Positions 8,778-59,209 of a DNA stretch of 64,000 bases are shown here, one piece after another. The notes under the pieces are model-generated. The model was not told where the DNA came from. It saw only the letters and a list, made by a program, of their open reading frames with translations, and did no database searches. The first letter of the stretch is position 1. Each line of letters opens with the position of its first letter. Source of the stretch: Neotamlana nanhaiensis. Its GTDB lineage: Bacteria > Bacteroidota > Bacteroidia > Flavobacteriales > Flavobacteriaceae. The DNA lies in the NCBI RefSeq assembly GCF_000943555.1, contig NZ_JTDV01000001.1, forward strand, positions 806,001 to 870,000. The letters run 5' to 3'. The position numbers and the translations under genes were made by a program.

Positions 8778-8822
8778 TAAAAATACACCATTAATTTTCC
8801 CGAAGTATCCTGTACAAACAGG
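8778..8822 (-). promoter_or_regulatory. Regulon promoter element A-minus (direct repeat plus -7 box)
   Basis: Read on the minus strand, 8822-8805 gives CCTGTTTGTACAGGATAC. The second half-site is canonical and the first is degenerate. After exactly 19 bp the -7 box TATTTTTA occupies 8785-8778. The GH28 start codon is 23 bp further on. The arrangement matches nine other promoters in the window. Confidence 0.7.
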
Positions 8823-8860
8823 TAATTCGTTAATTTTTAAATGAAATAGTTTCTGGCAAT

Positions 8861-8905
8861 CATCATAGTACAGGATACGTATTCTATTTTAAGTAGATAT
8901 TTTAG
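8861..8905 (+). promoter_or_regulatory. Regulon promoter element A-plus
   Basis: 8861-8878 reads CATCATAGTACAGGATAC, a weak first half-site and a canonical second one. The -7 box TATTTTAG starts at 8898, with its TTTA one base closer to the repeat than in most copies. It drives the CE12/GH2/CE12 operon starting at 8921, divergently from element A-minus. Confidence 0.65.
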
Positions 8906-8920
8906 TATAAAATATATTTC

Positions 8921-10219
8921 ATGCACTCCAAAAACCAGACATTTTTTTTCTTTTTTAGCATCCTACTTTCTCTAGGATTAAGCGCTCAAAACGCAACGAC
9001 TAAACAGTTTTTCTTCGGAAAAAAAACCAACACCACAGGCACAAGTATTAACAATGTAAACAAATACACTGATGCTATTGGCTACGGATTTGATTACGAC
9101 ACCGCTGAAAAAATAGCTTTCAAAAAAAATTACTTAAAAGCTGAAGGATCGGTTTATTTTTCGGTAAAACTTCCTGAAGGCAATTATAAAATTGAAGTTG
9201 TTTTAGGCGGAAAACCATGTTCTACAACAACTATAAAAGCAGAATCGAGGCGTTTAATGCTTCAAGAATTAGCCCTAGATAAAAAGGAAACCAGCACACA
9301 AACCTTTACCGTAAACGTTAGAACTCCTAAAATTAACGAGGATAGAAGCATAAAAGTTAAAAGCAGAGACAAACATCAACTTAACTGGGACAATAAATTA
9401 ACTCTAGAATTTTTAGGAACACCGGTAATTCAAAGTATAAAAATTGAACCTGCCGATGTTACCACAGTATTTTTAGCTGGCGATAGCACGGTAACCGACC
9501 AAGATGTTGAGCCTTGGGCTTCATGGGGGCAATTTATTACCAACTACTTTAACGATAATATTGCCATTGCAAATTACGCCGAATCTGGTTCTTCTTTACC
9601 TGCGTTTAAAGGCGCGCTTCGTTTAGAAAAGATATTATCGGTTATGAAACCAAACGATTATTTAATTGTTGAATTTGGCCACAACGACGAAAAAATTAAA
9701 GGTGAAGGCAATGGCGCTTGGGGGCTTTATAGCAATCTTCTAAAAGAATACATCACAGCATTTAGAGATCAAGGTGGTAAAGTCATTTTATCAACACCAA
9801 CCGAAAGACGTCACTTTGATAGCGACGGTAACCTAAAACGTACACACGGCGATTTTCCTGCTGCTATGAAAAAAGTGGCAGAAGAATTGAATGTTCCTCT
9901 TATCGATTTAACCGAAAAAACACGCTTAATGTACCAAAGTTGGGGTGTAAACGACTCCAAATATGCTTTTGTACATTATCCTGAAAACACGTTTCCTAAT
10001 CAAACAAAAAAATTAGAAGACAATACGCATTTTAATGGTTTTGGCGCTAACGAAATCGCAAAAGCTGTAGCCACAGGTATACAAGGATTAAACTTAGATT
10101 TATCAAAATATTTAAAAACAAGCTTACTAAACTATAACCCGAAACATCCAAACAAATTCAAGGATTGGACGCTCCCTATGAGCACCCGATTCGAAATCAC
10201 AAAACCAGACGGTAATTAA
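8921..10219 (+). CDS. CE12 rhamnogalacturonan acetylesterase-type SGNH hydrolase
   Basis: This 432-residue protein has a signal peptide ending near LSAQ. An N-terminal beta-sandwich (about 30-175) precedes an SGNH esterase domain. The nucleophile motif is GDST (Ser189), the oxyanion-hole block is FGHND (253-256) and the catalytic pair is in DNTH (Asp367, His370). This is the CE12 pattern. In that family the reaction is removal of acetyl groups from the galacturonate of rhamnogalacturonan, which opens the backbone to lyases and hydrolases. It is first in a plus-strand operon and GH2 starts 8 bp after its stop. Confidence 0.87.
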   Translation: MHSKNQTFFFFFSILLSLGLSAQNATTKQFFFGKKTNTTGTSINNVNKYTDAIGYGFDYDTAEKIAFKKNYLKAEGSVYFSVKLPEGNYKIEVVLGGKPCSTTTIKAESRRLMLQELALDKKETSTQTFTVNVRTPKINEDRSIKVKSRDKHQLNWDNKLTLEFLGTPVIQSIKIEPADVTTVFLAGDSTVTDQDVEPWASWGQFITNYFNDNIAIANYAESGSSLPAFKGALRLEKILSVMKPNDYLIVEFGHNDEKIKGEGNGAWGLYSNLLKEYITAFRDQGGKVILSTPTERRHFDSDGNLKRTHGDFPAAMKKVAEELNVPLIDLTEKTRLMYQSWGVNDSKYAFVHYPENTFPNQTKKLEDNTHFNGFGANEIAKAVATGIQGLNLDLSKYLKTSLLNYNPKHPNKFKDWTLPMSTRFEITKPDGN

Positions 10220-10227
10220 TTATTTTT

Positions 10228-14914: not shown

Positions 14915-14959
14915 CAGGATTGGACAGGATAGACTATTTATAAGAATTATCTATATTTA
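14915..14959 (+). promoter_or_regulatory. Regulon promoter element B, upstream of PL1
   Basis: 14915-14932 reads CAGGATTGGACAGGATAG, two nearly identical half-sites with a 10-bp period. Exactly 19 bp later the box TATATTTA occupies 14952-14959. The element is also flanked by a perfect inverted repeat (arms 14904-14915 and 14928-14939), unlike the other copies. The PL1 start lies 110 bp further on, which gives it the longest leader of the ten. Confidence 0.75.
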
Positions 14960-18246: not shown

Positions 18247-21200
18247 ATGAAACACTTTTGGCTATACTCTTTTTTTCTTTTATTTCACATAAGTGTATCC
18301 CAAAATATTCAAATTGAAAAACTCGATATTAAAAATGGTTTACCAGATAATTCGGTAAGAGATATCATTCAAGATAAACATGGTTATTTATGGTTTGGCA
18401 CACTAAATGGATTAAGCAGATATAACGGAAATAGCTTTAAAAATTACAACACTATTCCTGGCGATACTACTAGCCTAACTAACAGCAGAATGATTAAAAT
18501 TCTTGAAGATAAAAGAGGGTTTATTTGGTGTTGGTCAAGAGATAATAATTTACAGCGTGTAAACCCTGCTACCAACGAAGTTTTCGATTTAAATAGTTAT
18601 GTTTTACACAATCAAATAGCAATTCAAGATTTCAAAATTATTTCAAATGGAGATATTTGGGTTTGGGGAGATAATGGGTGCGCAAGAATACAATATCAAG
18701 GGAATGCTAATAGTTTAAAAGCCAAAATTTTTAACCAAATAAACGGTATTAAAAACATAAAAGTTCATTTTGTTTTTGAAGACCTAAACAAGAATATTTG
18801 GATTGGTACAGAAAAAGGGCTCATTAATTTAAACTCATCTGATGATAAGGCAAACATAAAAGTACATTATCCCAACATAAACTTTATAAGTTATAATATA
18901 TTTAATAATCAAATTTGGTTAGGAACAAAACGTCAAGGTGTTTTTAATTTTTCGAAAGAAAAAAACAGTTTTTCCCCCTCAAAGTTTCTTAATACCAAAC
19001 TCGGTTTTAACTCTGTATTATCTATAAATCAGTACGATTCAGAAACTTTACTTTTAGGACTTGAAAATGTTTTGGTAAAATTTAATCTGGTAAGTCATAA
19101 AGTCACAAAAGTACACCATAAGTTATTTAATGGTATTTCTAGGTTTTACAACGATTCTTTTAAAAACACTTGGCTAATTGCTCAAAAACGGGGCGTTTTT
19201 AAATACGACATTAATAATAACAAAGTAACTTATTACGATTTAAACGCACCAGAACGTGAATTTTTAGGTGGATCGGATAAAGTAGTAATTCTTGAAGACA
19301 GTAATAAGAACCTATGGCTTGGAGTGCATAGTGGCGGACTTTTTTTATACAATCGGGAACAGAATGAATTTAAAAATTATTCATATAATGAAGAAAAGCA
19401 AGGAGGCTTGTCATCTGATATAATATTAAGTTTATACGAAGACGCCTCCAAAAACCTTTGGGTAGGCACTATGTATGGAGGTGTCAACAAAATCAATTTA
19501 TCAAAAGATTATTTTACATGGTATAATCCGGTAGAAAAACCTAAAAATATATTTTCAAACGAAATACGAGCTGCCGTTCAAGACCGTAATTCTACTGTTT
19601 GGCTCGGCAGTAAAGGCGGAAATATTTTTGGTTATAAAAACGATTCATTAAACTATACTTTTCCTGATGATCTTTCCAAAAATAGTAAACACCTATTTAA
19701 GAATGTTAATGTTTACTGTTTATACATAGACCACCAAGACAACCTATGGATCGGCACCAAAGGAAAAGGCTTGTTCATTGTTAAAAATATAACAAACGAA
19801 ACCAAAGACAAGTTTGAAATTATTCATTTTAACAATAATAAATCTAAAGCATTAAACGATGTTTATTCTATTGTACAAGATAAAACAAACAGCTATTGGA
19901 TTGGTTCTCACGGTTATGGCTTAGCGCATTTAACTTCGCCTTTTTCTTCACCAAAAATAGAAACGTTTAATACAGAAAATAAACACCTCATTAGTAATTA
20001 CATCCGATATTTGTTTTTAGATATAGATAATAACCTTTGGATAGCAACATCCGATGGTATAAATTTTTTAAATTCTGAACACTTAACTTTAAAAGAAAAA
20101 AAATTTTTAGCTATAAAAAATATAAAAGACGAAATAACTTCACTAAGTTTTAATTCTGTAGACCATATATACCAATCGGTTGACAAAACCGTATATATAG
20201 CAACAATGGGTGGAGGCGTAGATATAATAACTCATAATAATATAGCTAAACGAAATTTCCAGTTTAAGCATTTAAGTACGTCCAATGGTTTATCTTCAAA
20301 CAAAATATTTGCTATTCAGGAAGATATTTATCAAAATATTTGGTTTAGCACCAGTTTGGGATTAAATAAATATTACCCTAGAAACGGTAAATTTGAACAC
20401 TTCTTTATCGAAAAAAATCATGGCCTTAATTACTTTTCAGAAGGTTGTGTTTCAAAATTAAGTAATGGAGATTTTTTATTTGGCCACCATCGGGGGTTTC
20501 TATCTTTTAATCCTAAAGATATAACCAAAGACACCACGCATTTCCCTTTGGTCTTTTCAAAACTTTTTATCAATGGTAATGAGCAAAGACCCAGACAATC
20601 TGATATTTTAAGCAAAAATATTGAATATGAAAATGAGCTCAACTTATCTCATAACCAAAACACGATCCAACTTGATTTTTCAGTGTTAGACTACAAGAGA
20701 CCAGAAAAGATTCAATACACTTATAAATTAGACAATTTTGATGCTGACTGGAGTGTACCGCTAACTCAAAATACAGCAATTTACCAAAATTTACCACACG
20801 GCAGTTATACTTTTTTATTAAAAGCAACTAATAGTGATGGAGTTGAATTAGCAGGTATGCAAAAAATTAAAATTAATATAAAGCCACCTTTTTTAAAATC
20901 TAATCTTGGTTATTTAATAACCTTTTTGATTTTCGGTTTCATATTTTTCTGCTTTTTGTATTTGTACAAAAAGCAAATTTCTGCAAAACAAGAAGTTATT
21001 TTTACTGATAAGCTTAATGAGAAAAAGATAGTTTATTACACTAACATATCACATGAATTTAAAACTCCTCTTTCACTCATTTCATGTCACTTAGAAGATA
21101 TTATAGACGAAGATAGTTTATCTGAAACTTCTAAAACAAGTATAAAAAAAATTCAGAAAAGTACAAGCTATCTTCTTAATTTAGTGGAACAAATTCTTGA

Positions 21201-22578
21201 TTTCAGAAAAATCAGAGAAGAAAAAAAGAAATTACAACTCGTTAACACAAACATTTTCAATACAATAAAAGATATTCACAATCAATTTTCTCCCTTGGCC
21301 ACAAAGGAAAACATAGAACTTATTTTTAATTATGATAGTAAAAATCTCCTTGGCTATATTGATGTTAATATTGTAAAAAAAATTGTTTATAACCTTTTGT
21401 CAAATGCTATTAAATTTACACCTGCTAATAAATTAATTAAAATTTCCGTAAAACGGATAAAGAATAATGAATTTGTAAAGATTAAAATAAAGGATCAAGG
21501 AAAGGGCATATCAAAAGAAGACCAAGAGCACCTATTTGAACGTTTTGGAAAAAGCGAAAATAGTTCTGGCATCGGACTTTTTTATGTTAAAGAACTGGTT
21601 AACTGTCACAAAGGTGCTATTAGTGTAAAAAGCGAATTAAAAAAAGGCACCTGCTTTATTATTACCTTACCCATTAATAAAAAATATTATCCAGAAGTAA
21701 CTTTTGAAAAAGAAAATGTGATAGTTAATGACAGTAATTTTTATGAACAAAAAATTGAATTTAACAATAATGAAATAGATGAAAATGATGTAAAAAAATC
21801 AAAATCCATTTTAATTATTGATGATAATAATGATATTCGCGACTATCTAAAAAGTAAATTCTCAAAACACTTTAGTGTATTAACAGCTGAAAATGGTAAA
21901 GTTGGGTTAGATGTTGCTATTAAAAAGCTACCAGATATTATAATTTGCGATTTAATGATGCCTGTGCTAGACGGTTTAAATACAGTTAAATTATTACGTG
22001 AAAATTTTAACACTTGTCATATCCCCATAATCTTACTAACCGCTAATGCCTCTGAGTATAAAAAAATTGAAGGCATAAAAATTGGAGCTGATGATTATAT
22101 TACCAAACCTTTTAATTTTAAATATTTGAAATTAAAAGTAGATTCGGTAATAGAGCAACGCGATAAAATGATAAAAAGTTTTAGTAAAAATCCAACGCTA
22201 TCCTCATCCATTTTAACCCAATCAAATGAAGACAAAACCTTTGTAGATAAAGTAAAAAACATTGTAGAAAATAGTATTGGAGAACCTAATTTTGGTATTA
22301 ATTTTATTTTAGAAAAACTAGGATTAAGTCGAACTGTTTTTTATAAAAAAATGAAGGAAATAACAGGTGAAACCCCTCATGAGTTTATTAGTACGATACA
22401 AATGAAAAAAGCTGCTTTATTACTAAAGAGTACTAATTATACCATCTCCGAGATTAGTCAAATCTGTGGGTTTAATGATGCCAATTATTTTTCTAAAATT
22501 TTTAAAAAATACTTTGGTCAAACACCTAAATCCTTTCAGTTAAAACACAAAAGCAATAAAAAAACAATGGCTTCATAA
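18247..22578 (+). CDS. Hybrid two-component system regulator (one-protein sensor/AraC)
   Basis: This 1443-residue protein has the full HTCS layout. A signal is followed by a two-component propeller sensor (about 20-770, repeated WFGT/WIGT/WVGT blade motifs), a Y_Y_Y domain (about 790-880), one membrane helix (about 887-908) and a histidine kinase with ISHEFKTPLSLI (His near 936). Next come an ATPase domain with GSGIGL-like SSGIGLFYVKELV, a receiver with IIDDNNDI and the phospho-acceptor in CDLMMPVLDG (near 1235), and a C-terminal AraC-type DNA-binding domain (GFNDANYFSKIFKKYFGQTP). Such proteins sense oligosaccharides in the periplasm and activate nearby glycan operons. It lies between PL1 and the GH31 locus and has no copy of the regulon element before it. 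It is a prime candidate to bind that element, because AraC-type proteins often use direct repeats. Confidence 0.93.
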   Translation: MKHFWLYSFFLLFHISVSQNIQIEKLDIKNGLPDNSVRDIIQDKHGYLWFGTLNGLSRYNGNSFKNYNTIPGDTTSLTNSRMIKILEDKRGFIWCWSRDNNLQRVNPATNEVFDLNSYVLHNQIAIQDFKIISNGDIWVWGDNGCARIQYQGNANSLKAKIFNQINGIKNIKVHFVFEDLNKNIWIGTEKGLINLNSSDDKANIKVHYPNINFISYNIFNNQIWLGTKRQGVFNFSKEKNSFSPSKFLNTKLGFNSVLSINQYDSETLLLGLENVLVKFNLVSHKVTKVHHKLFNGISRFYNDSFKNTWLIAQKRGVFKYDINNNKVTYYDLNAPEREFLGGSDKVVILEDSNKNLWLGVHSGGLFLYNREQNEFKNYSYNEEKQGGLSSDIILSLYEDASKNLWVGTMYGGVNKINLSKDYFTWYNPVEKPKNIFSNEIRAAVQDRNSTVWLGSKGGNIFGYKNDSLNYTFPDDLSKNSKHLFKNVNVYCLYIDHQDNLWIGTKGKGLFIVKNITNETKDKFEIIHFNNNKSKALNDVYSIVQDKTNSYWIGSHGYGLAHLTSPFSSPKIETFNTENKHLISNYIRYLFLDIDNNLWIATSDGINFLNSEHLTLKEKKFLAIKNIKDEITSLSFNSVDHIYQSVDKTVYIATMGGGVDIITHNNIAKRNFQFKHLSTSNGLSSNKIFAIQEDIYQNIWFSTSLGLNKYYPRNGKFEHFFIEKNHGLNYFSEGCVSKLSNGDFLFGHHRGFLSFNPKDITKDTTHFPLVFSKLFINGNEQRPRQSDILSKNIEYENELNLSHNQNTIQLDFSVLDYKRPEKIQYTYKLDNFDADWSVPLTQNTAIYQNLPHGSYTFLLKATNSDGVELAGMQKIKINIKPPFLKSNLGYLITFLIFGFIFFCFLYLYKKQISAKQEVIFTDKLNEKKIVYYTNISHEFKTPLSLISCHLEDIIDEDSLSETSKTSIKKIQKSTSYLLNLVEQILDFRKIREEKKKLQLVNTNIFNTIKDIHNQFSPLATKENIELIFNYDSKNLLGYIDVNIVKKIVYNLLSNAIKFTPANKLIKISVKRIKNNEFVKIKIKDQGKGISKEDQEHLFERFGKSENSSGIGLFYVKELVNCHKGAISVKSELKKGTCFIITLPINKKYYPEVTFEKENVIVNDSNFYEQKIEFNNNEIDENDVKKSKSILIIDDNNDIRDYLKSKFSKHFSVLTAENGKVGLDVAIKKLPDIIICDLMMPVLDGLNTVKLLRENFNTCHIPIILLTANASEYKKIEGIKIGADDYITKPFNFKYLKLKVDSVIEQRDKMIKSFSKNPTLSSSILTQSNEDKTFVDKVKNIVENSIGEPNFGINFILEKLGLSRTVFYKKMKEITGETPHEFISTIQMKKAALLLKSTNYTISEISQICGFNDANYFSKIFKKYFGQTPKSFQLKHKSNKKTMAS

Positions 22579-22623
22579 AAGAATAAAACCATTGTTACTA
22601 ACAACTAATTAATAGAAAACTAA

Positions 22624-25059
22624 CTAAATTATAATAATCGATATAACTTCTTTGTTTGATATTTCTGGTGAAACGCTTAAAATGCCGTCTTTAAAACTAA
22701 CCTGCTCGGTTTCGTTTATGTGGTACTTTTTATTGTTTATCTTAACATGATCCGGTTGTTCTTTTAGGTGAAATTTCGCCGTATATGTTTTTTCTTCACT
22801 TTTAAAATCACCTTTAGGCATTTCAATGTCTAACTTGATATTTTCTTCAGCTACTTGAAGAGTTATAGCCGTAATATTAAAATCTCCTTTTTGGTATTTC
22901 AAACTTTTGCCATCATCATTGTATAAACTGAAAGTACTCGAGGCAGTAGGGTAAACATCAAGGGTTAAGTGATCAATAGGCTTCTCGCCAACATAGTTTA
23001 CTGGAACTTGGGTAGGAATTATGGCGCCTTCTTTTACAAAAATGGGCATTTGGTCAATGGGGGAAAGTACATTATAATGCTTTTTACCCTCGTAAATTTT
23101 TCCTGTCCAATAATCTGTCCATTGCCCTTCTGGAAGGTAAACTACTCGGGTTTTCGCCCCTTTTTGGGTCACTGGACAAATCATTAAACTTTCTCCCAAC
23201 ATATATTGGTCGGTGATGCTATAAACATTCACATCGTTTTGATACGGAATTACCAAAGCACGCATTAGAGGAATGCCGGTTGTGTACATTTGGTACGAGT
23301 GACTATATAAATAGGGAATTAAACTATAACGTAACCTGTCATATTGCTTGAAAATTTGCAAAGCTTCATCGCCGTAGCTCCAAGGTTCTTTATAATTAGG
23401 GTGCTCCATCCCGAATAAATGGGCTATGGGGCTTAGCAATCCAAATTGGCACCAACGGATATAAAGTTCGGGGTCTGCGATATGTTCAAAGCCTCCCATA
23501 CAGTGAGCCCAATTACCAACACCGGAAAGCCCAATATTAAGCCCCGCTTTTATAACGGGTTCAAAATACTGCCATTCGCTAGGCCAATCGCCTGCAAAAA
23601 TAAAAGGATAGCGCTGTATGCCCGCATAACCTTCCCTGGTGTGGTTCATACCGCGAATGCCATTATATTCTTGAAATTTCTCGTATGGTGCTTTGGCATA
23701 GGCAATGGGAAATAGATTGTGCAAAGCTTTAACGCCTTCGCCTTGAGGGCCTACTTTATTGCTTTCGTTTGCTTTTCTTCCAAAGGCACTGCCTTCGTCG
23801 GTTTTTAAAAACATCGCACCTTGGTCGGCAATGGTTTTCACGCCGTTTTTCCACCACCAATCAACAGCCTTTTCATCAAAGAAATTAACGAATTCGCCTA
23901 AACTGTTTTCTTCTGGATATACATGTCCTTTCTCACGGGCTTGATCTAGAAGATTTAAGGTTTTCCCATTGTCAAACCTGGGGCGTAAATGCAGGCCAAC
24001 CATGTTTAAATTTAAGTCGTATAAATCTGAAAACATCTGGTCTGGGTTGTCAAAAGTGTTGCGCCACTCAAAGGTTGTAGCGCCTTTGCCACCGCTTTTC
24101 CCAAAAATGCGCCATGTAGAATCTAAATGCAGTATATCTAACGGAATTTCTAATGCTCTGAACTTTTTAGCGAGGTTAACAACATAGTCGGTAGAGGTGT
24201 GTTTTTCATGTCCCCAGGTTCCGCCGCTGTAAGTACCCACATGCAAGCCTAAAGCAAATTTGGGTAACAGGGGAGACTTCCCAGTTAAGGAAGTGTAGCC
24301 ATCTAAAATATTTGAAAAAGTGGGACCGTAAATAAAGTAATAATCCAATTCACCGCCATCAGCATAAAAACTGTATCGGTTGTTGGAATCGGCACCCATA
24401 TTCCAAGTTGTAGGGTATGCTGTGTGGAAAAACAAACCATAGCCTGCGGTGCTCATAAAAAACGGTATGGGGCTGTAATTGGCTTCCAGTACATTATAGG
24501 CTCCGGTAATGTGCGGCCTACCAAGTCCTCGTCCAACGTTAAGTTCAACTTTTTTGCCACGACGGTCTAAAAAGTCCATGCGCTCTCCAAACCCAAAAAA
24601 ATGCTCGTTTGCTTTTAAATGTTTGGTACTTCCAACTTTACTTTCGTTTTTAAAACCGCCATAGTTTTGGCCTTTATTGGTTTCAGATGAAAGCAAGGTG
24701 TTGTCTTTATCAAAAAACTGAATACTAAACGGGGTTTTGTTTATCTCTACTTTTAAGTGCTCGGTATGGATTTTAATGGAGGTATCTGTTTCAGTAAGTT
24801 TATGAGGGACATTATGCCAATTGTAATTTGAAACCATCCAATTTTCGTTATCCAAAAAAGTATGGTTCCAACTTGTGCGTACCCTTATAATTGATGGTGT
24901 ACAAAGTTCAACTATAACGGTAGCTTTAGTTGTTTTAAGTTTTATTTCGTTGCTGTTCTTTTGTAGTATTTTTTCAAAATTGCCGGTGTTTGTTTGGGCG
25001 TCAATGGAAATAATGGTGAGTAATAAAATATAAATACAGGCTAAAGTTTTGTATTTCAT
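22624..25059 (-). CDS. GH31 alpha-glycosidase
   Basis: This 811-residue protein has a signal peptide ending in SIDAQ. It has the GH31 N-terminal beta-sandwich with FGFGERMDFLDRRGK and YGLFFHTAYPTTWNMG, a TIM barrel with ILHLDSTWRIFG, the nucleophile in FLKTDEGSAFG (Asp near 420) and the acid/base in FAGDWPSEW (Asp near 491). A C-terminal domain carries a typical NDDGKSL. The family includes alpha-glucosidases, alpha-xylosidases and alpha-galactosidases, and I cannot pick one. It follows the SusC/SusD lipoprotein operon on the same strand after 148 bp and is convergent with the HTCS gene. It lacks the regulon element. Confidence 0.9.
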   Translation of the reverse strand: MKYKTLACIYILLLTIISIDAQTNTGNFEKILQKNSNEIKLKTTKATVIVELCTPSIIRVRTSWNHTFLDNENWMVSNYNWHNVPHKLTETDTSIKIHTEHLKVEINKTPFSIQFFDKDNTLLSSETNKGQNYGGFKNESKVGSTKHLKANEHFFGFGERMDFLDRRGKKVELNVGRGLGRPHITGAYNVLEANYSPIPFFMSTAGYGLFFHTAYPTTWNMGADSNNRYSFYADGGELDYYFIYGPTFSNILDGYTSLTGKSPLLPKFALGLHVGTYSGGTWGHEKHTSTDYVVNLAKKFRALEIPLDILHLDSTWRIFGKSGGKGATTFEWRNTFDNPDQMFSDLYDLNLNMVGLHLRPRFDNGKTLNLLDQAREKGHVYPEENSLGEFVNFFDEKAVDWWWKNGVKTIADQGAMFLKTDEGSAFGRKANESNKVGPQGEGVKALHNLFPIAYAKAPYEKFQEYNGIRGMNHTREGYAGIQRYPFIFAGDWPSEWQYFEPVIKAGLNIGLSGVGNWAHCMGGFEHIADPELYIRWCQFGLLSPIAHLFGMEHPNYKEPWSYGDEALQIFKQYDRLRYSLIPYLYSHSYQMYTTGIPLMRALVIPYQNDVNVYSITDQYMLGESLMICPVTQKGAKTRVVYLPEGQWTDYWTGKIYEGKKHYNVLSPIDQMPIFVKEGAIIPTQVPVNYVGEKPIDHLTLDVYPTASSTFSLYNDDGKSLKYQKGDFNITAITLQVAEENIKLDIEMPKGDFKSEEKTYTAKFHLKEQPDHVKINNKKYHINETEQVSFKDGILSVSPEISNKEVISIIII

Positions 25060-25112
25060 GGTTTTGTGTTAGAATTTGCTTGTGTTTTTGCTGTTTTATC
25101 TAAGTAGTATGG

Positions 25113-25189
25113 TATTGATTGGAGGTCTGGGTGCAACACAAAATCTCTCAACCCTTTGTCTTACATCCCAAACCTCTATCAAATCAATA
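25113..25189. repeat. Imperfect inverted repeat before GH31
   Basis: The arms at 25113-25131 (TATTGATTGGAGGTCTGGG) and 25167-25189 pair apart from a 4-base bulge and two mismatches. There is no T-run on the minus-strand 3' side, so a structured leader or weak attenuator fits better than a plain terminator. Confidence 0.45.
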
Positions 25190-25207
25190 GCAAACTAGAT
25201 TAAACGG

Positions 25208-25885
25208 TTACTCAATGTTTTCCCACGTGGTTATAAACGTATCTATACTCGAGCTGTCTGGTAAAAAAACCGTAGCAAATTCACCACCTGATTTATAACC
25301 TTCAATGGTTATGGAGTTTTCTTCAGCCAATAGATTTGTGGTTGCTTCAATGTCGGATGTGTTGATGTATTTTATTTGAGTTTCAACAGCACCATTTGAA
25401 ATATCGGCATCGCTAAAGCTTAGGCTAAGTGTTCTGGTTATGGAGTCTATATTGGAGGATAGCAAGGTTCTGTTTGAAATGAGCTTTGCATAATTATCTC
25501 CGTAAGATGTTCCAAAAACTTCAACAGGAATCGATATATTACCATAGGTATCGTAGGTTTTTATGATGAACGAATAGCTGTCTTCCGGCAAATTATCCAG
25601 CATAATTTCCTGTAAGGTGTTGGTTTGCTCTACCGGAACCGAAATAGAATCTGCATAAAAATTCCAAAACACCCGGGCTTCGTTCACAGCAGGGTCTCCA
25701 GGGGTTAATACTTCTATTTTTACTCTATTTTTTCCTGAAAAGGAAACCGGTTCAAGTACTTTTCCAGGATAGTTTCTATCTGAAAATTGATTTACAAAAT
25801 CTTCGTAAATTTCAGTTTGGTCTTGGCAGGATATGGTGCTTACAATAAGCGCAGATACTGCCATATATATAAATATATTTTTCAT
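25208..25885 (-). CDS. DUF4998-type surface lipoprotein
   Basis: This 225-residue protein has a lipoprotein signal (IVSTISCQDQTEIYEDF) and a body with YPGKVLEPVSFSGKNRVKI and ARVFWNFYADSISVPV. It resembles the DUF4998 lipoproteins that accompany SusC/SusD pairs in Bacteroidota. No enzymatic motif is seen. A surface glycan-binding or accessory role is inferred from position: 22 bp after the DUF4959/DUF5000 gene and before GH31. Confidence 0.72.
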   Translation of the reverse strand: MKNIFIYMAVSALIVSTISCQDQTEIYEDFVNQFSDRNYPGKVLEPVSFSGKNRVKIEVLTPGDPAVNEARVFWNFYADSISVPVEQTNTLQEIMLDNLPEDSYSFIIKTYDTYGNISIPVEVFGTSYGDNYAKLISNRTLLSSNIDSITRTLSLSFSDADISNGAVETQIKYINTSDIEATTNLLAEENSITIEGYKSGGEFATVFLPDSSSIDTFITTWENIE

Positions 25886-25907
25886 GTTTAATGCTTCTTA
25901 ATTTCAA

Positions 25908-27101: not shown

Positions 27102-27121
27102 GATTTGTTTTTTTAGTTGAT

Positions 27122-29002: not shown

Positions 29003-29039
29003 TGTTTTTCTTTTAAATTTTAAAACCATCATCATTCAG

Positions 29040-32000: not shown

Positions 32001-32171
32001 ATCGGTTGTTGTTCCTATGGCGCTGCCTTTAACTACAATGGTCACTCCAGGCAAGGGCATTCCGCCTTTATCTGTAACCACTCCAGAAACATTGATCTTA
32101 TTTTGCCCCAAAATGGGTAAGCTTAACAAGAATGCCAATATAAAGAGGACTTGTTTTGTTTTTATTTTCAT
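29040..32171 (-). CDS. SusC-like TonB-dependent outer-membrane transporter (GH31 locus)
   Basis: This 1043-residue protein has a signal peptide ending in PILGQ, a carboxypeptidase-D-like regulatory domain (VSGVVTDKGGMPLPGVTIVVKG, TTTDFDGKYDF), a TonB-box-like EEVVVVAFGEQKK, a plug domain (VRGVTTFGTQANRSPLILIDGIE) and a beta-barrel of about 800 residues. It imports oligosaccharides with the SusD encoded 37 bp downstream. No regulon element precedes it. Confidence 0.93.
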   Translation of the reverse strand: MKIKTKQVLFILAFLLSLPILGQNKINVSGVVTDKGGMPLPGVTIVVKGSAIGTTTDFDGKYDFLIPDDAKALVVSYVGMLKQEIKIEGKSTINIVLLEDTEALEEVVVVAFGEQKKTDMIGAVSTINTKDLQKISTSNLTTALAGQVAGVIAYQRSGEPGEDNADFFVRGVTTFGTQANRSPLILIDGIELTTTDLARLQKDNIASFSVLKDATATSLYGARGANGVILVQTKQGVEGPAKISLRIENSTSSPTRNVEFADPVTFMQMHNEAVITRDPLGQTLYSPQKIENTINGTNPYVFPTNDWNALLFKNHTNNRRMNLNVSGGGKVARYYVSGGYNTDNGILKTHKRNNFNSNIKLNTYSLRSNININISPSTELVVRLNGVFDDYTGPLNGGSDVYKMAVRSNPVLFPAYFPVDEDHKYVKHILFGNYGVDANYLNPYAEMVRGYKDYSRSRMLAQFEVNQDLSALTQGLKFNTFVNTNRNSYFDVSRSYNPFYYQVANYNALENSYTLQQLNPDTGTETLGDPQGGGKTVSSTFFLQSQLVYNRKFNEKHQVGGLLVFRMNETIDSDFTSLQTSLPFRNLGLSGRGTYGYDDRYFVEFNFGYNGSERFHESQRYGFFPSVGAAWTISNETFWEPFKEAVNNFRLRASYGIVGNDGIGSASDRFFYLSEVNLNDSGRSATFGRDNGYTRNGVRVSRYANPDITWEIARKTNIALELGLFNKFTLQADYFRERRTNILMEREAIPSTMGLQTSIKANLGEASGSGIDLAADFRHNWSDGTWISARGNFTYATNKFEVYEEPEYDEYWRSRVGKSIQQTYGYIAERLFVDDEEAQNSPTQNFGGNPVGGGDIKYTDVNEDGEITEADMVAIGNPTLPEIVYGFGLSFGYKNFDVSAFFQGLTNESFWIDPKAIAPFVRSGGGENQVLQVVADSYWSESNRDVYAFWPRLDTELNENNTQTSTWFMRDGSFLRLKQVEVGYNMPEKLRETLGMTTFRVYLNASNLLTFSKFKKWDVEMGGNGLGYPVQRTVNVGMNISFN

Positions 32172-39194: not shown

Positions 39195-39239
39195 TAAATA
39201 TATATATTTATGATGTGGTGAGTATCCTGCGCTATACTG
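39195..39239 (-). promoter_or_regulatory. Regulon promoter element C, upstream of GH105
   Basis: On the minus strand 39239-39222 reads CAGTATAGCGCAGGATAC (10-bp period). Exactly 19 bp on, TATATTTA occupies 39202-39195. The GH105 start is 28 bp further. Confidence 0.75.
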
Positions 39240-44676: not shown

Positions 44677-44721
44677 CAAAGAACAGATTAAAATAAAGTA
44701 TTGCTATCCTGCACTCTCCTG
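44677..44721 (-). promoter_or_regulatory. Regulon promoter element D, upstream of SusC
   Basis: On the minus strand 44721-44704 reads CAGGAGAGTGCAGGATAG. After 19 bp the box GTTCTTTG (44684-44677) keeps the TTTG but not the leading TA. The start codon is 73 bp on. Confidence 0.7.
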
Positions 44722-44897: not shown

Positions 44898-46721
44898 TTA
44901 ATAACCTGGATTTTGTAACGCCTGTTTTTGCGAAGCATCTAGCGGGCTTCCATTGGCATAAATACCATCAAGAAAAGTTTGTGGAATAGGTCTCAAATTG
45001 TGGAAATCTTGAATATTTGGCGCAGCCTCTGGGTTATAAGCTCTTGCGCGCTCTACAAGAGTTTGGGTTCGACTTAAATCTTCCCAACGATGCCACTCAC
45101 CACACAACTCTCTTGTACGCTCATTTAAAATTAAGCATAACATTCTATCATATTCTGAAGAATATCCTAACGTACTAATAATAGCCTCATCTTCATCTGG
45201 AAGAACTGCTGTACTAACTATAGTTAAATCTGTCGCAGCTGTAGTAACAGGAATATTATTAGACTCGTAATATGAGTTTTCATTCATATAAGAATTAGAC
45301 TCAAATGGTTGCGAAAACGTAGATGTTGGGTACGATTCTGCGCCATCCTCATAATAAGCTCTATCCTCTCCACTTTTATAGGTTGCACGCTCACGCACGG
45401 CATTTATGTAAGGTAAAGCATCAGCATATGAACCTGTCCCCATAGCTGCTTGTTTTATTTTTGCCTCAGCTGCCATTAAATATGTTTCGGCAGAACGCGC
45501 TAAAAACTCATCACGCATCCCTCTGTTATCGTTGATTGCCGTTCTATCTGATTCAAAATGCTTTGATAATGATGGCCATCTTGGGTTAGCCATTAAACCA
45601 ACCCCATCGGCTGCATAAGCAACAAATACATGTGGAATAGTCTTTCCTGTTGCACTGTATAAAATACTAGGGTCGTTATTATTTATAGTACTTGCAAACC
45701 TAGTATCGTCAGCAGAATTAATAACATACATAATTCCTAAATCTACCCCTGGCGTATACGAAACACCACCAAACTCACCACCACTATTTACGCGGTGTTT
45801 TGTTCTGAATACTTTCCAGAAACGCGAATCGTTAACATGATCGAAAACGTCATAGGTAAAGTAGGTTGCAGCCATACGACTATAAGGACGCATTCCGGTA
45901 AGATCACGTTTCATCATTGGTAAATCGTCATAACGCGCTGTAAAGTGTGTATGCTGATGATTATAGGTTTCGAGAGCAGCATCTCTACCAAATGAGGCTG
46001 ACAAAATTAATTCTGGTAAAAATTCGTTTGCTCCATCTGGTTGTGTATATCTCCATAATTCTTGATAATTACTTGCTAATGGATGATTACCAATAACCTC
46101 ATCAGATAATGCAACTACTTGAGCTAAGTCTGCAGATTTTGTTGAAGAATTCCAATCATCATTAATTTCACTAGCACGAGTTAAATAAGCTTTGGCTAAA
46201 TAATGTGCTGCGGCATCTTTACTTATACGATGAGGCTGTTGACCTGAGTTATTTAATAGATTATATGCTTGGGTAAAATCGTCTATTACTTGAGCTAAAA
46301 CTTCCTCTGCTGAAGCTCTTGTAAACTCTAACTCTACCGTATTACTAGGTTCTAACTTTAAAGGAACGCCTCCATATTGACGTACTAATTTTAAGTAATT
46401 GTAAGCTCTAAAGAAATACCCCTCACCTAAAGCTATATTTTTAATTTCTGGATTTGAAGATTCAATATTAGTAGCCGATTGAATTAACTGATTGGCTAAA
46501 CCTATACCAATATATTTATCGTCCCATGGCTCTTCAGCAGTGGTTCTTATTGTTGTTATTATTGAACCAAATCTTGAATCGTAGTTATTCCATTGGCTAT
46601 TAGTATCATCACCTCCAACATGAAACTCATCGGTACCATATTGTGTAGTACCAAATTGATATTCCGTTCTAAAAGAATGAGTTAATACACGATAATAGGC
46701 TCCAATAGCTAATTCTTGCAA
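44898..46721 (-). pseudogene. N-terminally truncated SusD paralogue
   Basis: The readable frame encodes 607 residues that match the SusD at 39306 from about its residue 46 to the end (YGTDEF, NNYDSRFG, NERTRELCGEWHRWEDLSRT, QNPGY). There is no ATG or GTG start. The first usable codon is TTG at 46721, a stop lies in frame at 46761-46763, and no signal peptide or lipobox exists in any frame before it. Only 161 bp separate it from the PL22-like gene and these hold promoter element E. About 45 N-terminal residues, including the export signal, are therefore gone, together with the expected upstream SusC. If translated it would stay in the cytoplasm. The body has no internal stop, so the loss is recent or the frame is still under some constraint. 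Confidence 0.78.
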
Positions 46722-46775: not shown

Positions 46776-46820
46776 TGAAAGTATTGTTAATCTTTTGTCA
46801 AACCGTCCTGCACTTACCTG
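46776..46820 (-). promoter_or_regulatory. Regulon promoter element E, upstream of the truncated SusD
   Basis: On the minus strand 46820-46803 reads CAGGTAAGTGCAGGACGG, the most diverged second half-site of the ten. The box TACTTTCA lies 19 bp on at 46783-46776. It sits 54 bp before the TTG and probably once served a now-lost SusC gene. Confidence 0.65.
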
Positions 46821-48189: not shown

Positions 48190-48233
48190 TAAATTTAGCC
48201 ATAGAGCACAGCAATTCTATCCTGTGCTATCTG
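48190..48233 (-). promoter_or_regulatory. Regulon promoter element F, upstream of the PL22-like gene
   Basis: On the minus strand 48233-48217 reads CAGATAGCACAGGATAG. The repeat period is 9 rather than 10, so the first half has lost one base. TAAATTTA follows at exactly 19 bp (48197-48190). The start codon is 32 bp on. Confidence 0.72.
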
Positions 48234-48340
48234 TTAAATTATCATTTATTTACTTTAACAACTTGCGCATTCCAGTATTTTATTGGTATAACTTTTGATG
48301 CCTTAAATTCTGTTAAAAAAGACTTAACAAAGCATTTTAA

Positions 48341-48385
48341 CAGGATGCTACAGGATAGCATATCTGCCAATAGCACATATATTTA
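48341..48385 (+). promoter_or_regulatory. Regulon promoter element G, upstream of GH106
   Basis: 48341-48358 reads CAGGATGCTACAGGATAG, a nearly perfect repeat, and TATATTTA follows at exactly 19 bp (48378-48385). GH106 starts 29 bp on. It is divergent from element F with about 107 bp between the repeats. Confidence 0.8.
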
Positions 48386-53830: not shown

Positions 53831-54388
53831 TTGAGTTTAGCATTAAAAAATCATATTGAAAAAATTGTATCTTTAACAGATGAAGAGTTTAAGTATGTGC
53901 TTTCTTTCTTCACTAAAAAAAAGCTTCAAAAACATCAATTTTTAATCGCAAGCGGTGCCCCTGTACAAACCGATCATTTTGTATTGAAAGGTTTACTAAA
54001 AGCCACTTACACCAATGATGAAGGCAAGCAACACATCTTACAATTTGCTATGGAAGACTGGTGGGTTACCGATTATCAAGCCTACTTTTTACAAACCAAT
54101 GCTACATTAAATATTGACTGTCTCGAAAATAGTGAAGTACTTTGTCTCACGCTAGAAAACAGAGAAAAACTATGTCGCGAACTTCAAAAAATCGAGCATT
54201 TTTTCCGCATAAAAACCAGTATGGGTTTTGTAGCTCAGCAACAACGCATTTTATCGTTATTAAACAAAGATGCCAAAGGACGCTACAATCAATTACTTGA
54301 ACAATATCCGCAACTCTTGCAGCGTGTTCCTAAAACTATATTAGCAGCTTATTTAGGGGTTACAAGAGAAACTTTAAGCAGGTTGTAA
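53831..54388 (+). CDS. Crp/Fnr-family transcriptional regulator
   Basis: This 185-residue protein starts with TTG; no in-frame ATG lies between the GH28 stop and that position. Residues of about 10-120 form a cyclic-nucleotide-binding-type beta-roll (HQFLIASGAPVQTDHFVLKGLLKATY, QFAMEDWW). The helix-turn-helix VPKTILAAYLGVTRETLSRL ends the protein. No cysteine cluster for an iron-sulfur site is seen, so it is more CRP- than FNR-like, and the effector is unknown. A CRP-type palindrome lies between it and the next gene (54399-54414), suggesting that it controls MdaB and perhaps itself. Confidence 0.88.
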   Translation: MSLALKNHIEKIVSLTDEEFKYVLSFFTKKKLQKHQFLIASGAPVQTDHFVLKGLLKATYTNDEGKQHILQFAMEDWWVTDYQAYFLQTNATLNIDCLENSEVLCLTLENREKLCRELQKIEHFFRIKTSMGFVAQQQRILSLLNKDAKGRYNQLLEQYPQLLQRVPKTILAAYLGVTRETLSRL

Positions 54389-54398
54389 TACTTGTAAA

Positions 54399-54414
54399 TG
54401 TGATATACATCACA
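54399..54414 (+). promoter_or_regulatory. CRP-type operator palindrome
   Basis: TGTGATATACATCACA is TGTGA, six bases, TCACA, the classic CRP/FNR-family half-site pair. A second, degenerate half-site (TGTGATATATG) begins at 54422. It lies 75 bp before the MdaB start and 10 bp after the regulator stop. Confidence 0.65.
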
Positions 54415-54488
54415 ATAAATATGTGATATATGTCCTTAACCTAAACCTTACTTTCTTCCGAAATTTGCCTAATAAATAAAGGCAATAC

Positions 54489-55088
54489 ATGAAGAATATT
54501 TTTGTAATAAATGGCGGCAAAAAGTTTGCCCATTCGGGAGGAAAATTTAATCAGACGATAGTTGATGTTGATACTGATTTTTTCACTACCAAAAACGGTT
54601 TCAATTTAAAAATAACCGACATAAATCAACCTTACAATCTAACAGAAGAAATAGAAAAATTCATTTGGGCAGATGTAATTATTTACCACTTTCCAGCTTG
54701 GTGGATGGGTATGCCTTATGCCTTAAAAGAATATTTCGATAAGGTTTTAACTGCTGGTCACCAAAAAGGTTTATACCGAAGCGATGGCAGAAAAGCAGAA
54801 AACCCTGCTATAAATTACGGCACCGGAGGATTACTAAAAGGTAAAACATACATGGTTACCACAACTTGGAATGCTCCTGAAACAGCATTTACATTACCTG
54901 ATGAGTTTTTTAAAGAAACTTCTGTAGACGATGGTATCCTTTTCGGGTTTCATAGAATGAATGCTTTTTTAGCGCTAGAACCTCTTAAAAGTATCCATTT
55001 TCATGATGTTGAAAAAAACAATGGAAACGAACAGGTACAAACTCATATGACGAATTACTTAACACATTTAAAATCGATTTTTAAATAA
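54489..55088 (+). CDS. MdaB-like NAD(P)H quinone reductase (flavodoxin fold)
   Basis: This 199-residue cytoplasmic protein begins MKNIFVINGGKKFAHSGG and has ADVIIYHFPAWWMGMPYALKEYFDKVL, the MdaB/YhdA-type flavodoxin-fold pattern, then GLLKGKTYMVTTTWNAP and FHRMNAFLALEPL. It should reduce quinones by two electrons with FAD. It starts 100 bp after the Crp/Fnr stop, beyond the CRP-type operator. A DJ-1 gene follows after 2 bp. Confidence 0.88.
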   Translation: MKNIFVINGGKKFAHSGGKFNQTIVDVDTDFFTTKNGFNLKITDINQPYNLTEEIEKFIWADVIIYHFPAWWMGMPYALKEYFDKVLTAGHQKGLYRSDGRKAENPAINYGTGGLLKGKTYMVTTTWNAPETAFTLPDEFFKETSVDDGILFGFHRMNAFLALEPLKSIHFHDVEKNNGNEQVQTHMTNYLTHLKSIFK

Positions 55089-55090
55089 AT

Positions 55091-55852
55091 ATGATACGAA
55101 AACAATTATTAATAGCGCTTTGCGCATTGGTTGCTTTAAAAAACTATGCGCAGATTAAAAACTCAAACAACATGGATAAAAAAATATTAATTGTACTTAC
55201 AAGCCACAGTGAAAAGGGAAATACTGGCAAAAAAACTGGTTTTTATTTAAGTGAAGTGTCTCATCCTTGGGACGTATTTAACAATGCGGGGTACACCGTA
55301 GATTTTGTTAGCCCAAAAGGCGGAAAAGCACCCGTTGATGGTTTTGATTTAGATGACCCAATCAATAAAAAATTCTGGGAAAACGAATTATATCATCATA
55401 AGATTGAAAACACAAATACACCTGCTCAAATTAACCCTGATGAATATGCTGCTATATTTTATGCAGGTGGACATGGTACCATGTGGGATTTTCCAGAAAA
55501 TGAAGCACTAGCCACTCTTGCTCAAAAAATTTATGAAAACAATGGAGTGATTAGTGCCGTTTGCCACGGACCAGCAGGTTTGGTAAACATAAAACTGAGC
55601 AACGGTAAGTATTTGGTTGATGGCAAAAAAATAAATGCCTTTACAAACGAGGAAGAAAGCGCCGTTAAATTAGAAAAAATAGTACCGTTTTTACTTGAAA
55701 GTAAACTTATTGAACGTGGTGCCATTTTTGAAAAATCGGCACCATGGCAAGTGCATGTTACTGTAGATAGTCGTGTGGTAACTGGCCAAAATCCACAATC
55801 GGCACATCAAGTAGGTGAAGCTACACTCAAAGAAATTGAAAAACTAAAATAA
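55091..55852 (+). CDS. DJ-1/PfpI (Hsp31-type) protein with signal peptide
   Basis: This 253-residue protein has the class I glutamine-amidotransferase-like fold: ILIVLTSHSEKG, FYAGGHGTMWDFPEN and the nucleophile elbow AVCHGPAG (Cys158, His159), as in Hsp31/HchA-type chaperone-glyoxalases. The first 21 residues (MIRKQLLIALCALVALKNYAQ) look like a signal peptide, which would put it in the periplasm. A start at Met28 (55172) would make it cytoplasmic. It is co-transcribed with the quinone reductase and ends at a strong terminator. Protection against aldehydes such as methylglyoxal or lactaldehyde is a guess. Confidence 0.85.
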   Translation: MIRKQLLIALCALVALKNYAQIKNSNNMDKKILIVLTSHSEKGNTGKKTGFYLSEVSHPWDVFNNAGYTVDFVSPKGGKAPVDGFDLDDPINKKFWENELYHHKIENTNTPAQINPDEYAAIFYAGGHGTMWDFPENEALATLAQKIYENNGVISAVCHGPAGLVNIKLSNGKYLVDGKKINAFTNEEESAVKLEKIVPFLLESKLIERGAIFEKSAPWQVHVTVDSRVVTGQNPQSAHQVGEATLKEIEKLK

Positions 55853-55861
55853 GTTTTTAGC

Positions 55862-55911: not shown

Positions 55912-55912
55912 A

Positions 55913-55957
55913 CAGGATGCCACAGGATAGAAATACAGGAGTTAAGGAGTAGTTTTA
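55913..55957 (+). promoter_or_regulatory. Regulon promoter element H, upstream of the esterase-GH43 fusion
   Basis: 55913-55930 reads CAGGATGCCACAGGATAG, a nearly perfect 10-bp direct repeat. The box TAGTTTTA lies at exactly 19 bp (55950-55957). The start codon is 53 bp further. Confidence 0.78.
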
Positions 55958-56010
55958 TTTTTATATGTATTTTTACTAGCAATTACATATAATAAGACAA
56001 AACGCCTAAC

Positions 56011-57810: not shown

Positions 57811-57837
57811 AATAAAACTTTAACTCTCATAAAGAAG

Positions 57838-57925
57838 CTGTCTAAAAAGTCGTTTTTTGTCAATCTGAACTTGTTTCAGATTCTGAAATAAATTCAGAAT
57901 GACAGATTTCACATTTTTTAGACAG
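57838..57925. repeat. Nested palindromic repeat (REP-like), possible terminator
   Basis: The outer arms CTGTCTAAAAA (57838-57848) and TTTTTAGACAG (57915-57925) enclose inner arms TGTCAATCTGAA (57858-57869) and TTCAGAATGACA (57893-57904), which in turn enclose TTTCAGA/TTCTGAAA (57874-57888). The inner part resembles intergenic repeats I recall from flavobacterial genomes. It sits between convergent genes, so it may also stop transcription from both sides. Confidence 0.6.
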
Positions 57926-57963
57926 TCTAATTTTTTATATACTCAAAAACACAGCCTTTCCTT

Positions 57964-59010
57964 TTAAATAGAGTTTCTATCAATAAAATTAAAATCTACT
58001 TTAACTTTTCCTTTCTTTTTATTTAAAATCATAGACGCGGCGGTTTCACCCATCATTTTAAAATCGGTTGAAATTACTGTAATCCCCAATAAATCTTTTA
58101 AAGGTGTATCATTATACGAAATAATACCAATTTCCTTTCCTAAAACAAATTCATCTTCACGCACTTGTTTTACGAGGTTTACTAAATCTGATTCTTCAAT
58201 AGTGATAAATAAATCTCCCTTTTTCAAAATGATATCGTCGTAAACTTCATTTAAAATTTCAAAATCTAAATTAAATTCACTGCAAAACTTTCTAAATCCA
58301 TGTAAAATTCGTCTCGGATACGGATATACCGAACTATCTGGATAAACCAAAAACAGTTTTTCGTATTTTTTAATTTTTTCGGCGCCTTCTTTTAAAGCAT
58401 TGTAAATATCATTTTCAAAATCTTGAGACACTTCAATAAATTTTCCATCAATATTTAATTTGGTATTATCTAAAATTACCAACCTATCCCTTGGCACATT
58501 TTTTATGGCTGCCAAAACTTTATCGGTAAAACTTACGTGACGTAAATCTTCGGTTTTAAAATGCGGCATAATCACATAATAATCGTAAGCCGATTTGTTT
58601 TTATCCATTAAATTTAAAAACAACGACTCGTCACAATGGTAAATATGTAACTCGGTATGCGAATTGGCACCTATACTATCAATAAACGAGTTATAAATAC
58701 GCATTTTATATGAACTCAGCTTATTTACTAAAAATAAAATATTGACTTTTGATATTAATTTGGTTCGCGTAATGTAATAGCCTTTACCTCGAATTGACGA
58801 AATGATATTGCGTTCTTTTAAAATGTTATACGCTTTTTCTACCGTATCACGCGATAAATAAAACTCTTCACTTAGCATATTTATCGATGGTATTTTTTGG
58901 TCGATGGTTAAGTTACCAACCGAAATATTATGAATTATAGAATCTACAATTTGTTGATATTTAGGAATTCTTGAATTTTCGTCAATTAATATAAACTTCA
59001 TTACTTCCAT
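57964..59010 (-). CDS. GntR-type regulator with sugar-binding C-domain, probable rhamnose regulator
   Basis: This 348-residue protein (a start at Met4, 59001, is equally likely) has an N-terminal winged helix of the GntR class: IPKYQQIVDSIIHNISVGNL, IPSINMLSEEFYLSRDTVEKAY, NIISSIRGKGYYI. From about residue 85 it has a LacI-type periplasmic-binding-protein domain (NILFLVNKLSSYKMRIYNSF, DYYVIMPHF, IGIISYNDTPLKDLLGITVIST). This AraR-like layout senses a sugar in the cytoplasm. It lies divergently next to the rhamnose catabolic operon, so rhamnose or a rhamnose phosphate is the likely ligand. GntR operators are usually palindromes, unlike the direct repeat at 59165, so its own target is unclear. 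Confidence 0.87.
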   Translation of the reverse strand: MEVMKFILIDENSRIPKYQQIVDSIIHNISVGNLTIDQKIPSINMLSEEFYLSRDTVEKAYNILKERNIISSIRGKGYYITRTKLISKVNILFLVNKLSSYKMRIYNSFIDSIGANSHTELHIYHCDESLFLNLMDKNKSAYDYYVIMPHFKTEDLRHVSFTDKVLAAIKNVPRDRLVILDNTKLNIDGKFIEVSQDFENDIYNALKEGAEKIKKYEKLFLVYPDSSVYPYPRRILHGFRKFCSEFNLDFEILNEVYDDIILKKGDLFITIEESDLVNLVKQVREDEFVLGKEIGIISYNDTPLKDLLGITVISTDFKMMGETAASMILNKKKGKVKVDFNFIDRNSI

Positions 59011-59164
59011 AATTCTTGGAGATGTTTTTAGATTTAAAACTTACACGAACGCAATGTTTTTCAACATTTAATATTCAAATAAACGGTCTTAAAATTAGTA
59101 TTCAAAATAAAAGTAAAATGAAATTTGACACATTTTTAACAATCTACATTAAATTTTAGTTAAA

Positions 59165-59209
59165 CGGGATAGTACAGGATAGAAACTTTTAATTGATAAC
59201 TTAATTTAG
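59165..59209 (+). promoter_or_regulatory. Regulon promoter element I, upstream of the rhamnose operon
   Basis: 59165-59182 reads CGGGATAGTACAGGATAG. The box TAATTTAG begins at 59202, with its TTTA one base nearer than in most copies. The start codon is 22 bp further. It ties sugar catabolism to the same control as the glycanases. Confidence 0.75.

Follow-up and report, generated by a model that had tools for sequence, protein, structure and literature searches.

How does a marine flavobacterium switch on, together, a set of genes that lie scattered over a pectin- and rhamnose-degrading region? The timing of ulvan- and pectin-degrading enzymes in these organisms has been poorly assigned so far, and each polysaccharide locus is usually expected to have a local membrane sensor of its own. 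The question is raised by a 64,000-nucleotide stretch of Neotamlana nanhaiensis DNA (contig NZ_JTDV01000001.1, positions 806,001 to 870,000; the window in what follows), which comes from a genome of 4.02 Mb assembled in 37 contigs. An initial annotation of this stretch described one promoter element at ten intergenic sites, consisting of two half-sites and a TAnnTTTR-like -7 box, and attributed it to an activator that takes the place of the -33 element. That activator was left unnamed; we propose as its likely identity the GntR-type protein encoded beside the rhamnose operon (57964-59010). Comparison of sites and proteins across genomes suggests that the element is probably the operator of this GntR/LacI-hybrid protein, acting as a rhamnose-responsive activator in place of the -33 element.

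All ten sites were present at the positions and in the orientations claimed (Table 1). The consensus is CAGGATAG-nA-CAGGATAG, followed by 19 nucleotides (nt) and then TAnnTTTR; position by position, 93 sites gave C-A-G-G/T-A-T/C-A-G-n-A-C-A-G-G-A-T-A-G/C, a nearly information-free stretch of 19 nt and TAnnTTT(G/A). A matrix built from 63 sites, all in other genomes and none in the genome of N. nanhaiensis, ranked exactly these ten sites highest in the window, with scores of 17.4-40.6 bits against 8.5 bits for the eleventh match. Among 60 simulated windows with the dinucleotide frequencies of the real one, the best match reached 11.6 bits and none reached 12. The recovery of all ten sites by a matrix from other genomes, and the scores of the simulated windows, indicate that the element did not arise by chance. 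As had been described, the second half-site is CAGGATAG or CAGGATAC in nine of the ten, the exception being CAGGACGG at 46820(-), and the period is 10 base pairs (bp) with a sole 9-bp case, CAGATAG-CA-CAGGATAG, at 48234(-). Other parts of the description needed adjustment. The first half at 8822(-), CCTGTTTG, matches at only four of eight positions. The box 19 nt away reads TAnnTT in nine of the ten sites and strictly TAnnTTT in six only, the SusC site carrying GTTCTTTG. The two sites to which a one-base shift was assigned, 8898 and 59202, can both be read as 19 nt followed by TAnnTTAG, a box form that also occurs at rhamnose-operon promoters of relatives.

The sites do not appear equally strong: the one at 46820(-) scored 17.6 bits by the matrix and 10.4 bits in a covariance-model scan of the window, and it was not among the 20 matches of the scan of the N. 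nanhaiensis genome. A pattern search with at most three mismatches over the whole 4.02 Mb gave 14 matches, eight of them in the window (1.6% of the genome), compared with four for the reversed pattern. At least two of the six matches outside the window lie within genes and appear chance-like. Two pattern matches far from each other, C2:8517 and C2:197412 (L011 and L012), have identical flanks over about 200 nt, as expected of a duplicated stretch and not of an operator.

The proposed regulator has an N-terminal GntR domain (PF00392, 44.6 bits against a cutoff of 27), and the best sequence match of the DNA-binding domain in the PDB is AraR (4egy, E 7.2e-8). No Pfam match was found for the C-terminal part at 1e-5; Peripla_BP_3 was found in two close orthologs, and a structural model (mean predicted local distance difference test score 91.7), with a LacI-type fold in its C-terminal part, has LacI-family structures as its top fold matches. 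The protein thus shares with AraR of Bacillus subtilis a GntR-type winged helix, a LacI/periplasmic-binding-protein-type C-terminus and a setting in sugar catabolism. The two differ in their operators: AraR is a repressor by name and binds palindromes, whereas here direct repeats stand in tandem at -33. We rejected an inverted-repeat reading of the rhamnose element, because its half-site is not self-complementary.

Close orthologs of the GntR protein (at least 430 bits) occur in 42 of 199 genomes, including that of N. nanhaiensis. All 42 also have the rhamnose aldolase-dehydrogenase, an enzyme found in 47 genomes. With at most two mismatches, the element was found in 39 of the 42 close-GntR genomes and in 26 of the 157 others (p = 1.7e-20); match totals were 175 and 36, respectively, compared with 9 and 17 for the reversed pattern. 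The three genomes without such a match (G049, G121 and G190) have a site with three or four mismatches upstream of the rhamnose aldolase gene. At E 0.01 the matrix found the element in all 41 other close-GntR genomes (1-20 matches each), in 2 of 34 controls (one borderline match each) and in one of five genomes with a diverged GntR ortholog. Matrix rows came from 29 of the 41 genomes, and the 12 that contributed none all have matches (1-12 each). In the 450 nt searched ahead of the rhamnose aldolase gene, the element is present in 40 of the 41 close-GntR genomes that could be tested, the best match having 1-5 mismatches of 17 and lying 60-117 nt before the start; in the remaining one, G127, it precedes the RhaT gene next upstream. 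The test covered all close-GntR genomes but G002, in which a contig begins at the rhamnose aldolase gene. Across the class (295 genomes), the GntR protein had a match at E 1e-100 in four genomes, N. nanhaiensis included. In the one of these four that is outside the family, G219, no element was found within 1.5 kb of the GntR gene, and one at E 5.6e-4 lies about 8 kb away.

The recognition helix of the protein appears to vary together with the half-site. It reads SR[DN]T[VI]EKAY in 45 of 45 close-ortholog proteins. Two diverged orthologs that keep the E (41-44% identity; G064 and G020) are accompanied by CAGGAT-type sites, among them CAGGATAGGGCAGGATAG beside the GntR gene of G064. Two others that have V (G108 and G037) are accompanied by CAGAACAG-like sites; G108 has two of them, each 19 nt from a box: CTTAACAGTACAGAACAC at the rhamnose operon, and CAGAACAGTACAGAACGG ahead of a SusC-like gene nearby. 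Of 22 paralogs with F, 17 bear a ACCAGAACAGAACAGAACGG-like site in the promoter of their own gene, as grouped by best match at up to six mismatches. This covariation would tie the element to the GntR protein better than co-occurrence does, although the numbers are small, with four diverged orthologs.

The paralogs have operators of their own. The 17 promoters with ACCAGAACAGAACAGAACGG, which has a 5-bp period, are that at G000:C7:140681-140698 and 16 others (among L189 and L197-L216). Near galactose-type GntR paralogs (L163-L179) we observed CTAGTAGGGTCTAGTAGG or its flipped form, in both orientations across genomes and at a variable distance from the -7 box; at L171 the neighbouring genes are galK, galT and an SSF transporter. 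A 10-bp period is also found in the galactose-type operator. Because the ACTAGT core of this operator is self-palindromic, however, we do not take it as evidence for direct repeats.

The spacing between repeat and box was strongly conserved. We collected 125 unique sites, nearly all from close-GntR genomes, with at most three mismatches over the two half-sites and no condition on the promoter box. TAnnTTT began at offset 19 in 68 of them, at 18 in one, at 20 in none, at 17 in five and at 29 in six, the range over all offsets other than 19 being 0-6. Offset 29 fits sites that bear a further half-site. The period was examined in 94 sites chosen by the second half and box only: the match to CAGGATAG at lag 10 averaged 6.02 of 8, with at least six matches in 71 of the 94 sites, and lag 5 averaged 4.8; the remaining lags from 4 to 25 gave at most 2.85, with 1.77 at lag 21. 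To place the -33 element we used 204 intergenic TAnnTTTG boxes in the fetched DNA. Upstream of them, TTG ended at offset 19 in 13 cases and at offset 20 in 10, versus a mean of 3.6 over the remaining offsets between 10 and 31. This would locate -33 about 19-20 nt before the box, where the repeat ends. The control triplet GTT peaks too (14 at offset 17 and 9 at 20), so support for this position is moderate. In the promoters bearing the element, TTG stands at that position in just 3 of 93. The proximal half-site does not resemble TTG more closely than the distal one does: in each of them, the middle base is T in 3 of 93. The sites are thus fixed to the -7 box at promoters without a -33 element, the place of -33 itself resting on the TTG counts, where the control triplet peaks as well. 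An activator in place of -33, as suggested initially, is supported by the spacing kept in relatives and by the rarity of TTG.

Longer arrays keep the same anchor. Where three to six half-sites are present, they extend upstream and the last copy stays 19 nt from the box; G184 has six consecutive half-sites ahead of a SusC-type gene, and there, too, 19 nt separate the final copy from TATTTTTG. Arrays of three or more half-sites were rejected as a general rule, because a third half-site (at least six matches at -10) occurs in just 3 of 93 box-bearing sites.

We infer physical binding, ligand and activation as follows. L-rhamnose or an early catabolite would occupy the LacI-type domain. The GntR protein would then bind head-to-tail to the tandem CAGGATAG half-sites, which are spaced by one turn of the helix. 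With the end of the last half-site 19 nt upstream of the -7 box, it would recruit RNA polymerase as a substitute for the -33 element that these promoters lack. This would switch on rhamnose catabolism and, along with it, the enzymes and SusC/D transporters that act on polysaccharides containing rhamnose: rhamnogalacturonan in N. nanhaiensis and ulvan in relatives. To our knowledge, no head-to-tail mode of this kind, with 10-bp repeats replacing -33, is known for AraR-like GntR proteins.

Several observations weigh against this explanation. The weaker 5-bp sub-period is not accounted for by head-to-tail binding. The rhamnose operon of G064 carries CAGTAAAGTGCAGGAAGG, with CAGGAAGG, despite the E in its helix; G020, which also keeps E, has CAGGATAC, with CAGGAT in one half-site only; the site in G037, CGGAACAGTACAGAATAG, was found through a search for the expected pattern; and for the fifth diverged ortholog, G024, no site was found. 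Among the 22 paralogs with F, two have no site and three have CAGGATAG-type sites upstream, which we read as targets of the rhamnose regulator. The GntR gene and the rhamnose operon co-occur, so that co-occurrence cannot separate the GntR protein from another rhamnose-linked factor, and sites in relatives share ancestry, so that their counts are not independent. Finally, most GntR regulators repress, and the operator of the F-type paralogs begins 3 nt after the -7 box of their own gene in 13 of 17 cases, a placement that looks like autorepression.

These last points favour a different use of the same operator, in which the GntR protein represses by covering the -33 region and is relieved by rhamnose. 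AraR's designation as a repressor fits this alternative, as does the variable placement at the galactose-type paralogs, where the operator lies mostly 10-23 nt before the box. Repression does not require operators in a fixed phase with the box, but more than half of the collected sites lie at exactly 19 nt; a repressed promoter also leaves the scarcity of TTG at -33 and the lack of TTG-likeness in the proximal half-site unexplained. We consider repression unlikely, although it is the main rival to activation.

The remaining alternatives assign the sites to a different protein. An unlinked regulator of another family, whether AraC-type like the RhaR of Bacteroides or of the OmpR type, is improbable in our view. 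OmpR/PhoB-type proteins bind direct repeats of 10-11 bp in place of -35, and the window encodes a small cyclic nucleoside monophosphate (cNMP)-binding protein (53831-54388). Such a regulator would leave unexplained both the half-sites that follow the recognition helix and the tandem operators at GntR paralogs. Novel AraC-type rhamnose regulators, moreover, have motifs with a period of 21 bp (PMC3870299). The same paper gives DeoR-type RhaR motifs as direct repeats with a 10-11-bp period, close to that seen here. We rejected a DeoR-family rhamnose regulator as the binder and give it almost no credence, because the DeoRC domain is absent at E 1e-5 from 16 of the 42 close-GntR genomes, including G163, G002, G132 and G169, which have 18-20 matrix matches each. 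The hybrid two-component sensor/AraC regulator (HTCS) inside the cluster, of the kind predicted to control rhamnogalacturonan loci in Bacteroides, also has direct-repeat motifs in its favour (PMC3878776), and Wenyingzhuangia gilva has both a 66% identical HTCS ortholog and a four-mismatch site before an esterase gene. In the 198 other genomes, however, the best HTCS matches have 30-36% identity (18 genomes at E 1e-150, with two candidates scored per genome), and 41 of these genomes have the element and a close GntR protein without a close HTCS ortholog. The spacing predicted for HTCS motifs is about 21 bp (PMC3878776), a lag at which our sites match by 1.77 of 8, compared with 6.02 at lag 10. 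With no close ortholog in the other sampled genomes that carry the element and the 21-bp spacing absent, the HTCS was rejected as the binder and is very improbable.

If the GntR protein is the regulator, rhamnose should unite the genes that follow the element. The initial annotation held that a genome-wide scan placing the element at random or before unrelated genes would count against it. The scan did not refute it: the two matches outside the window below E 0.05 precede a gene for a DUF4998/DUF5013 protein (C19:317352, E 6e-6) and one for a rhamnogalacturonan lyase family 11 protein (C5:72987, E 0.019). A weaker match (C7:136748, E 0.15) precedes a LacI-type gene; downstream genes were checked for these three, and eight further matches outside the window range from E 0.27 to 8. 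In relatives, the element precedes the rhamnose operon and sulfatase-rich loci with SusC/D, GH106- and GH105-like genes. Ten genes that follow sites were scanned in the ulvan degrader G163: one encodes an endo-ulvan-lyase domain, one a PL28 domain together with that domain and one GH78-type rhamnosidase domains. Of the pectin/rhamnose theme proposed initially, rhamnose and not pectin seems to be the shared part, since the element precedes ulvan lyases in an ulvan degrader. The regulon seems to be one of rhamnose-containing glycans, ulvan included.

The element also precedes another GntR/LacI-type gene in G163 (L064:450-11166) and G044 (L071:9541-10697). In G044, a three-copy element lies directly before the operon adjoining that gene, and G163 has an operon like it, with genes for UxaC, UxuA, dehydrogenases and a DctP-type binding protein. 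The rhamnose switch may reach uronate catabolism too.

Table 1 Proposed operator sites and associated genes in the window
Feature	Position	Strand	Context
Operator CCTGTTTGTACAGGATAC + N19 + TATTTTTA	8778..8822	-	Before GH28 gene; first half weak
Operator CATCATAGTACAGGATAC + N19 + TATTTTAG	8861..8905	+	Before GDSL/SGNH esterase (CE12 in the initial annotation)
Operator CAGGATTGGACAGGATAG + N19 + TATATTTA	14915..14959	+	Before secreted PelZ-like protein
Operator CAGTATAGCGCAGGATAC + N19 + TATATTTA	39195..39239	-	Before GH105, sulfatase and GH43 genes
Operator CAGGAGAGTGCAGGATAG + N19 + GTTCTTTG (without TA)	44677..44721	-	Before SusC
Operator CAGGTAAGTGCAGGACGG + N19 + TACTTTCA	46776..46820	-	Before SusD-like gene; among the two weakest
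Operator, 9-bp period + N19 + TAAATTTA	48190..48234	-	Before PL22-like lyase gene
Operator CAGGATGCTACAGGATAG + N19 + TATATTTA	48341..48385	+	Before GH106
Operator CAGGATGCCACAGGATAG + N19 + TAGTTTTA	55913..55957	+	Before esterase with arabinosidase-type domain
Operator CGGGATAGTACAGGATAG + N19 + TAATTTAG	59165..59209	+	Before rhamnose operon
Proposed regulator, GntR winged helix + LacI-type domain (AraR-like)	57964..59010	-	Divergent from rhamnose operon
Bifunctional rhamnulose-1-phosphate aldolase/short-chain dehydrogenase + L-rhamnose-isomerase-like protein	59232..62699	+	
FGGY kinase, perhaps rhamnulokinase	62708..64000	+	Extends past the window end
HTCS	18247..22578	+	Rejected as binder

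Two of the gene assignments in Table 1 are by distant likeness. The secreted protein after the third operator weakly resembles the pectate lyase PelZ (118 bits against a model cutoff of 840), and the L-rhamnose-isomerase-like protein matches isomerase models at 410-500 bits, below their cutoffs. The SusD-like gene at 44898-46721 is not directly preceded by a SusC gene; the element that it has of its own is weak. None of the ten elements lies inside 18247-35064, which holds the HTCS gene with GH31, DUF4998, DUF5000, SusC/D and GH2 genes and is probably a separate regulon. A cassette at 53831-55852, between the GH28 and esterase genes, encodes cNMP-binding, flavodoxin-fold and DJ-1/PfpI proteins with no evident link to polysaccharides.

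The sites are most likely those of one GntR-type regulator that many marine flavobacteria share, and their build and placement are unusual for such a regulator. Palindromes are the usual form of GntR sites, and direct repeats are described for NanR, NagQ, FarR and the MocR group (PMC4494728, PMC5320631). These proteins likewise place a GntR domain on direct repeats and differ in their effector domains; no 10-bp tandem array at -33 was seen for them in the parts of the two papers that we cite. The RhaR, RhaS and RhiR regulons resemble ours in controlling rhamnose catabolism and, in some lineages, rhamnogalacturonan genes. They are assigned to the AraC, DeoR and LacI families, with no mention of GntR or Flavobacteri found in the text of the paper as drawn on here, and mostly comprise one to several operons, compared with up to 20 matrix matches per genome here (PMC3870299). 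HTCS_Rgu of Bacteroides thetaiotaomicron similarly places rhamnogalacturonan loci under one regulator with a direct-repeat motif, and differs in being a sensor-kinase hybrid of another family, with about 21-bp spacing, where we propose a one-component GntR protein (PMC3878776). The view that no operator of this form had been published for these genes was borne out among the matches listed in the open-access literature searched. Nor was there, among the matches listed in the open-access literature, any report of a GntR rhamnose regulator in flavobacteria. A GntR protein of Zobellia, from the 2020 work of Dudek and colleagues, is reportedly, by its title, a repressor of alginate genes; it too would control algal polysaccharide use in a flavobacterium, and differs in its substrate and its mode of action.

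On balance, we slightly favour the broader proposal that one cytoplasmic, rhamnose-sensing GntR/LacI hybrid is the master activator of ulvan and rhamnogalacturonan use across the Flavobacteriaceae, acting at up to about 20 promoters per genome, head-to-tail on two to six 10-bp repeats that replace -33, and reaching a uronate operon in ulvan degraders. If this is true, a single monosaccharide regulator with a readable operator would allow the scattered loci that form the rhamnose regulon to be predicted from sequence, and the distant family-11 rhamnogalacturonan lyase of N. nanhaiensis would join that regulon. The pairing of helix and half-site, E with CAGGATAG and V or F with CAGAACAG, would further provide a testable specificity code for a protein family that includes galactose-linked and other paralogs.

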